64,000 nucleotides of DNA from Acidobacteriota bacterium (lineage in GTDB: Bacteria > Acidobacteriota > Blastocatellia > UBA7656), in the NCBI GenBank assembly GCA_038040445.1, contig JBBPIG010000001.1, positions 216,402-280,401 of the forward strand, read 5' to 3'. A program made the position numbers and the translations under genes. The stretch's first letter is position 1, and each line of letters starts with the position of its first letter. Below, one piece after another: positions 6,791-8,986 of the stretch. The notes beneath the pieces are model-generated. The model ran no database searches. It was not told the origin of the DNA and saw only the letters and a list, made by a program, of their open reading frames with translations.

Positions 6791-8302
6791 TCAGTGTTTT
6801 ATTTTCGGCCAGTAGACGGCGAAGTCGAAGTCCGGATCGTTCGGTTCCTTGTGACACTGCATGCAGCCCACGGGGGTCGCCACGAAGCCATATCCTTTAG
6901 CCGGGTTGCTTGCGTGCTCTTGGCCGGGGCCGTGACATTCCTCGCACTGCACATTAGCGAACTGAGGCGTGGTGTACAGCGATTGGAAGCCTCCCCGTTG
7001 GAAGCCGACCACGTGACACGCGATGCATTCGTTGTCGAATTGTTGGCTCTTTTTCTCGAGCGTGGCCATCGCGTGAGCATGCCTGGTGCCCACCCATATC
7101 TGATTCTCTTTTTCGTGACAACCGGCACACGTCTCGACTCCAACGTAGGGCGACCCTGTTGCGTTCAGCAAAGCGGGCTTTGGCGAACCGGCGGTCGCTT
7201 GTGCGCTCTGGCTTTGTTCGTTGGTGAACTCGGTATGAGCCGCGGTGACGACCTCTACGGCTGAGGGGTCGTCGGGAATGTTGGAATCAAGCGCCACGTA
7301 CCGGTTAACCTGATTCTCTGCGCTCCGGTCGCCTTTGACATAAACGCGCAGCTCGCCCAGATACTTGGTCTGGTTATAAGAGTAAGTGATCGTGGCGCGA
7401 TTGAAGTGCTGGGGTTCATCCATTGAACTGGTCTGCCGCGCTCCAATAACCGTATCAATCTCGGAATTTTCGGTGGCCAGACGTTGAGCAGACGCTGCGT
7501 CCATATAGGCGAGCGCTACAATAAAGTCAGACTTCTGCTTTAGCTCGGGCAAGATCTTTTTGGCGGCTTCAAACGGATCGGTTATGCGGTAGCCGGCGTA
7601 GACTTCCTCCTTTTGCGTCTGAGTCACAGGCTTGCCTTCCGTAAATCCGACTATCCCGATTTTCAACTTCTGCCCGGGAGCGCCGCGCTTCAGCACAATC
7701 TCACGAACAACATAGGGAACGGGAGCGCGATGCTGATCATCCTGCGGCTGGAGGTTAGCTGACACCAGTCGCTGCATGAATGGATACTCGTCAACTCGCT
7801 TGTCATAGCCGTCTTTCTTTAGAAGCTCGGATATGTAAGGCAGGTCAAGGTAGCTGATGTTAGCAGCGTCGTGATGAAAATCGCCGTATCCCTTGACTAC
7901 CCACTTGTTTTTTGTCATAACCTCGGCGGGTAGTTGGTCCGCGCTGTAACGATCATCTGAGAACAAGTTACCTGCATCAACGAGGAGCGTCGGGACTTCC
8001 GTGTTTGACCTGTGCCTAAAAGCCTTGATATAGCTGACACGCCGTGCCAGTCCACCCATAGGGTGGCTCGGTCAGCCACAGGTTTCCAGGCTGCCGTGAA
8101 CGTCAGCGCCGTACATGATCGCAAAGGCGTAGCCGTCGTCTTCGCCTAACCGCTCTTTTATTTTTGGATCGTTCAGGTCGAAACTGATGGTGTCGTCTCG
8201 ATCAGCGTCGTCCATACCACCGGAACGGGAACAGCCGTTGTTGATTATTGCGAGCCCGGTCATAAAAGTAGCAATGACCAGCAATGAGATTTTTCGACGC
8301 AC
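6791..8302 (-). CDS. UshA-like tetraheme cytochrome lipoprotein with an in-frame TGA (candidate selenoprotein)
   Basis: Two adjacent minus-strand frames are one gene separated only by an in-frame TGA at 8072-8074; reading through gives 503 residues. Residues 1-24 form a lipoprotein signal (AIINNGC, lipid-modified Cys24). A metallophosphoesterase/UshA-like domain follows: DVHG at 67-70, ETCG-[TGA]-PSHPMGGLARR at 73-88, then DAGN, SANL and GIVGFTE. Related proteins typically have Cys at the TGA position. The C-terminal part has four c-type heme sites, CAGCH, CIACH, CEECH and CMQCH, with histidines at 396, 430, 457 and 484. Several usual phosphoesterase metal ligands are altered (IGARQ replaces the GHxH motif). 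It is presumably an exported redox protein. From memory, unverified, a family named UshA-like (seleno)protein exists in public annotation. Confidence 0.8.
8034..8050 (-). promoter_or_regulatory. Candidate bacterial SECIS hairpin downstream of the in-frame TGA
   Basis: Counting from the base after TGA, bases 22-28 (CUGGCAC) pair with 32-38 (GUGUCAG), giving seven base pairs including one G-U, with the three-base loop GGC at 29-31. Bacterial SECIS elements are small hairpins inside the reading frame with the apical loop roughly 16-37 bases after UGA and a G among the first two loop bases. This hairpin fits that description. Binding by SelB is inferred. Confidence 0.65.
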
Positions 8303-8395
8303 TGCAACCTCCAGGTTAGTCGCTATTCGCGGGGCTAAGACCGAAGCCGATTCTCAAGCGTTTGCTTTCGCGCCGTCAGTCGCAAACCAATAAAG

Positions 8396-8986
8396 ATGCC
8401 GGGGAGAGAGCCCAGAATCATTCTTGCTTCCGCGTCCCCACGACGCGCCGATTTGCTCAAGCAAATCGGGGTCGAGTTTGAGCTTGCACCCAGCCAAATC
8501 GGGGAGCGCCCTCATCCTGATGAGACGCCAGCCGATTATATCACACGCATTGCAAGGGCTAAAGTTATTGCCGCGGCGCGCACGCGTGAAGCCGGACTGG
8601 TCATCGGCGCGGATACGGTGGTTGTGCTGGACGGCCGCCTGATGGGCAAACCTCAGGATGAGGCGAGCGCCGCAACCATGTTAGAGCAGTTGTCAGGAAG
8701 GTGGCACGCCGTGATGACCGGCGTCGCGCTCTACGACATCGAAACCCGGCGCGAGGTTGCGGACTATGATAAGACTCTGGTCAAATTCGCCCAGCTCACC
8801 GACAGAGAGATTGAATGGTATGTAAGCACCGGAGAGCCGATGGATAAGGCTGGCGCTTATGGGATTCAGGGGCTTGGCGGTCTGTTTGTCGATGAGATCG
8901 CGGGCAATTACTACAACGTTGTTGGGTTGCCCATTCCGCTCGTGTATCGCCTGGCGCGGCGGCTCGGATATTCGTTTGTGGAGTAG
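8396..8986 (+). CDS. maf: Maf-family nucleoside triphosphate pyrophosphatase
   Basis: A 196-residue Maf protein with all family motifs: LASASPRRADLLKQIG at residues 10-25, the ETPADYITRIARAK helix, GADTVVVLDGRLMGKP in the middle, the HAVMTGVALYD strand and DKAGAYGIQGLGG near the C-terminus. Maf enzymes hydrolyse non-canonical or standard nucleoside triphosphates (dTTP/UTP or m7GTP) to monophosphates and have been linked to septum formation arrest. The substrate subclass was not determined. Length is normal. An SDR gene follows 24 bases later on the same strand. Confidence 0.93.
   Translation: MPGREPRIILASASPRRADLLKQIGVEFELAPSQIGERPHPDETPADYITRIARAKVIAAARTREAGLVIGADTVVVLDGRLMGKPQDEASAATMLEQLSGRWHAVMTGVALYDIETRREVADYDKTLVKFAQLTDREIEWYVSTGEPMDKAGAYGIQGLGGLFVDEIAGNYYNVVGLPIPLVYRLARRLGYSFVE

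Follow-up and report, generated by a model that had tools for sequence, protein, structure and literature searches.

The minus-strand gene at positions 6791 to 8302 of the window, the 64,000-nucleotide stretch of Acidobacteriota DNA that was analysed as a whole, almost certainly encodes a selenoprotein, in which the UGA at codon 77 would be decoded as selenocysteine (Sec) under the direction of an RNA hairpin located 22-38 nt downstream. The protein is an UshA-like tetrahaem protein that, judged from its sequence, almost certainly belongs to the NF041198 (UshA-like, CxU) family of selenoproteins. The reading of UGA as Sec is indicated by the composition of the codon column in homologues, covariation in the SECIS hairpin, purifying selection upstream of the TGA and the presence of the sel machinery, and these results together support the proposal of a candidate selenoprotein made in the first-pass annotation from the window sequence. 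The gene comprises 503 codons (8302-6794) from a GTG start at 8302 to a terminal TGA stop at 6793-6791, and a ribosome-binding site (GGAGG, 8308-8312) can be read 5 nt before the start codon. Rereading of the frame confirms that the in-frame TGA (8072-8074, residue 77 of a CGU motif) sits in ETCG-U-PSHPMGGLARR and is followed by 426 further codons, as originally described. The N-terminal residues 1-30 (8213-8302) form a signal or lipoprotein-like leader with Cys24 in the sequence NNGCS, where the AlphaFold model places a hydrophobic helix at residues 3-21 and where the GC pair at residues 23-24 recurs in two relatives. The earlier description of a lipoprotein with four CxxCH sites is correct with respect to the latter, while lipid attachment at this GC pair is plausible, although the lipobox, NNGC, is not canonical.

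The codon column shows a strict alternation between Sec and Cys. Relatives were found in 196 of the 396 Acidobacteriota genomes searched, and an alignment at the TGA column, proposed initially as a check on the assignment of the TGA to a Cys-like position, bears this assignment out in the homologues read at the motif (n=71), with TGA in 45, a Cys codon (TGC or TGT) in 26 and any other codon in none. A tree of these 71 domains implies about nine interchanges of Sec and Cys, and well-supported branches force no fewer than five of them.

The hairpin occupies positions 8034-8050 on the minus strand, in agreement with the 7-bp, GGC-loop structure claimed at first sight, and consists of CTGGCAC-GGC-GTGTCAG at +22 to +38 after the TGA, with one G-U among its pairs; nine positions spanning 8052-8032 are paired in most relatives. 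The rules for bacterial SECIS elements, as set out in a 2026 review (PMC13188914), place the loop 16-37 nt after the UGA and call for a loop of 3-9 nt, a stem of 4-16 bp and a G within the first two loop positions. The hairpin fits these rules with a spacing of 28 nt, a 3-nt loop beginning with G and a stem of 7 bp, so that the bacterial SECIS test suggested at the outset has a positive outcome, to which covariation in the TGA homologues is added. Relative to a free-energy threshold of <= -7.5 kcal/mol, the 7-bp stem alone has an energy of -7.1 kcal/mol, and a 46-nt segment beginning at +13, in which four further pairs extend the stem at its base, has one of -11.9 kcal/mol. As a single structure the hairpin is weak evidence, since of all 2256 TGA trinucleotides in the window 4.7% are followed, within the permitted range of distances, by a stem of equal or greater stability, and the modest excess of the window sequence over synonymous shuffles (rank 0.4) means that the case for a SECIS element rests on the family. 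An Rfam scan of the region returns chance-level matches only, and no comparable hairpin lies downstream of the terminal TGA. In the free 65-mer RNA a competing hairpin is favoured and the SECIS pairs have a probability of about 0.03, which becomes >=0.97 once the first 8-14 nt after the UGA, which would lie inside the ribosome, are omitted.

Conservation of the hairpin across TGA homologues is what makes the SECIS evidence strong. For nine pairs (+20 to +28 with +40 to +32) in 34 distinct ungapped TGA homologues, 91.2% of cells form standard pairs, compared with 28-45% when the partner strand is slid, and the covariation score is 0.391, compared with 0.026-0.099 for the slid arrangements. Cells in which both partners have changed number 34 against a shuffled mean of 11.4, a count reached in 0 of 500 shuffles. 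Homologues with Cys show 60.6% pairing at the same spacing (n=22), no better than shuffled sequences (316/500). Folding energies follow the same division, with a mean of -10.9 against -5.9 kcal/mol for synonymous-codon shuffles in Sec homologues and a value hardly better than shuffles in Cys homologues (-6.4 against -5.9 kcal/mol). A SECIS-like hairpin is still present in a Cys paralogue of the same genome (L071) and in another Cys homologue (L037), which fits a recent change from Sec to Cys. The SECIS element is thus backed by covariation across a phylum.

Two domains are recognised in the protein. An UshA or 5'-nucleotidase-like domain of the calcineurin type covers approximately residues 56-370 (7195-8137), as indicated by a family profile that matches 5'-nucleotidases and SoxB and by an AlphaFold model (mean pLDDT 85.7) for which Foldseek matches CD73 and UshA. 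It is followed by a c554-like tetrahaem domain at 6851-7129 (Pfam PF13435, Cytochrome_C554, 3.4e-14) with CxxCH sites at 7129-7115, 7027-7013, 6946-6932 and 6865-6851. All four sites, as well as Cys75, Gly76 and Sec/Cys77, are invariant in 32 tetrahaem homologues. The fold and the N-terminal block I region are common to the window protein, UshA, CD73 and the SoxB thiosulfohydrolase, whereas the metal ligands of the later blocks are missing from the window protein and a Sec/Cys pair and the tetrahaem domain are added. The ligands of the two metals in CD73 and UshA are well established, and from the UshA-type series (DxH, DxGD, GNHE, GH, GHTH) the window protein retains DxH only, as Asp67 and His69 of block I; alignments show replacement of the Asp of DAGD, the Asn-His of GNHE and both later His residues. 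In the family profile the metal positions of 5'-nucleotidases fall on non-ligand or variable residues, and most family members lack even block I, whose Asp-x-His persists in the window protein and in those most closely related to it.

A redox role for Cys75-Sec77, which we regard as reasonably likely, is suggested by three features: the motif does not vary, most metal ligands are gone and a tetrahaem domain is fused to the UshA-like part. The protein would be exported and then loaded with four c-type haems, redox chemistry would take place at the Cys75-Gly-Sec77 pair, within the pocket that housed the metals in the parent 5'-nucleotidase fold, and electrons would pass between this pair and the tetrahaem domain in either direction. 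The relationship with SoxB, together with the C-x-U motif, allows a guess that the substrate is a thiol or another sulfur compound. As the Asp-x-His of block I is kept, residual metal binding by the window protein is possible, and this retention together with the shared fold is also what would be expected if the selenoprotein had remained a metal-dependent hydrolase, either a phosphoesterase or a thiosulfohydrolase-like enzyme, with Sec binding a metal or acting as the nucleophile. That alternative is rather unlikely, however, in view of the replacement of the remaining ligands, the loss of block I elsewhere in the family and the fusion to a tetrahaem domain.

In bacteria, SelB brings Sec-tRNA(UCA) to the SECIS hairpin, with SelA acting as the synthase and SelD supplying selenophosphate. 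The genome-wide search for selA, selB, selC and selD that had been recommended finds all of them, including an ordinary tRNA-Sec(UCA) on contig C9, SelA on C6 (479 bits), SelB on C45 (359 bits) and SelD (L017) on the minus strand of C21 (108415-109344). SelD carries its own in-frame TGA at SCAG-U-AAK, which indicates independently that this genome uses UGA for Sec, and SelB would be expected to deliver Sec-tRNA(UCA) to the hairpin of the window gene for decoding of UGA 77. Of 54 genomes that have a homologue, 52 also encode SelA; co-occurrence of sel genes is uninformative as a discriminator between Sec and Cys forms, nearly all Cys-only genomes also having SelA. Insertion of another residue such as Trp or Cys at the UGA by a near-cognate or unusual tRNA is very improbable: an additional tRNA-Sec-like gene with the anticodon GCA does show that unusual tRNAs exist here, but GCA reads UGC and UGU rather than UGA, and the tRNA with UCA is the ordinary tRNA-Sec. 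Furthermore, read-through by an ordinary tRNA needs no SelB-type hairpin, whereas the hairpin covaries and is lost in Cys homologues, and the full Sec pathway is available.

The additional tRNA-Sec-like gene (L002, 1501-1591 on the minus strand, corresponding to G000:C5:159193-159283; also L124, L125 and L126) scores 65.4 bits with Rfam RF01852, is missed by ARAGORN and has a T at the discriminator position along with its Cys anticodon. In tRNA-Sec-like genes of four genomes of the same family, GCA is invariant and paired changes occur in the D-stem, and only one CysRS exceeds the cut-off in the genome. The gene resembles selC* tRNA-Cys, for which a review (PMC7609411) names Firmicutes, Thermodesulfobacteria, Nitrospirae and Proteobacteria, and not Acidobacteriota.

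Decoding of the UGA as Sec is also consistent with the selection acting on the codons that precede it. In comparison with an independent Blastocatellia MAG (L009; 78-79% identity), in which the TGA and the gene order are as in the window, dN/dS is 0.07 before the TGA, with the signal excluded, and 0.07 after it, a result that speaks against the 5' part being a relic and against an internal start. A genuine stop, arising from a pseudogene or sequencing error and leaving a shorter protein from the ATG at 8059, would match the 422-aa open reading frame that automatic gene callers would report, but this least probable of the explanations is countered by the same TGA in independent relatives (L009, L022, L023 and 41 more), by the purifying selection upstream, by the lack of conservation of the Met (HPMGG, NPSGG, NPRGG) and by the fact that such a protein would lack the signal for export, without which c-type haems are not attached. 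Automatic calling would truncate this recoded selenoprotein gene.

Assignment to a known family is based on NCBIfam NF041198 (UshA_like_PCGU, 'UshA-like (seleno)protein'), with which the window protein shares the CGU motif, the UshA-like domain and the C-terminal haem domain. The score of 282.6 bits is just above the cut-off of 275, and the motif is TCGU rather than PCGU; residues 332-494 of the haem part align to positions 351-518 of the 519 in the model. A close relative (L009, 258.8) and the second paralogue (L051, 209.4) score below the cut-off. The COG0737 UshA-like CxU selenoprotein was described from marine metagenomes in 2008 (PMC2398784) and the family is listed in reviews of 2022 (PMC9312934) and 2026 (PMC13188914), and the earlier statement that UshA-like proteins have been named as possible selenoproteins is accurate. 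The suggestion that Sec is remarkable when it occurs in a protein with four haems does not hold, as NF041198 itself includes the tetrahaem architecture, which is common in Acidobacteriota. With the CxU family known since 2008 and the four CxxCH sites included, the gene represents a further member of a known selenoprotein family. The open papers searched give no function for the family and no report of it in Acidobacteriota. Other Sec-containing groups are more distant. NF049981 (UshA-like (seleno)protein family 2) is of the same superfamily with the same N-terminal region, but the window protein scores 37.5 bits with it (cut-off 140), and its motif is CxxU in place of CxU. ExtKL (NF040886) and MccSep (PDB 9wt8) are also c-type multihaem proteins carrying Sec, but sequence similarity to ExtKL (14.3 bits, cut-off 250) does not extend beyond the haem motifs, and the profile match to MccSep is confined to a single haem region.

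Three paralogues are present in the genome, namely the tetrahaem Sec proteins of the window and of L051 (G000:C21, CGU motif) and the haemless Cys protein L071 (G000:C39), which has CDC at the motif and a 9-bp SECIS-like hairpin that is possibly a fossil SECIS. A TAG inside L071 was considered as a recoded codon and rejected, being the ordinary stop of L071. In related families there are haemless forms whose CGU column holds TGA (L036, L041, L044, L054, L056, L059, L086), and as the four that were scored (L036, L044, L056, L086) reach 103-125 bits, far under the NF041198 cut-off of 275, haemless Sec UshA-like proteins are probably mis-annotated in databases. A tentative overall reading, for which the odds seem slightly unfavourable, is that a 5'-nucleotidase fold, having given up its metal site, became a periplasmic Sec-dependent oxidoreductase that diversified into several paralogues per genome in Blastocatellia-type acidobacteria, some with four haems and Sec and others haemless with either Sec or Cys, and that the haemless CGU selenoproteins make up one or more branches missed by present curated models. 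The lineage offers natural sets of paralogues differing in Sec or Cys and in the presence or absence of haem for finding the function of the family.

No conserved redox partner gene is found near the UshA-like gene, whose neighbours encode Maf, Uma2, DciA and YceG. The neighbourhood was considered as a clue to function and set aside, since Maf, the immediate neighbour in three distant families, and DciA and YceG, located close by in others, are all housekeeping genes. In the window, maf is located at 8396-8986 and adjoins the UshA-like gene, as it also does at L023, L038 and L050 in distant families of the phylum.
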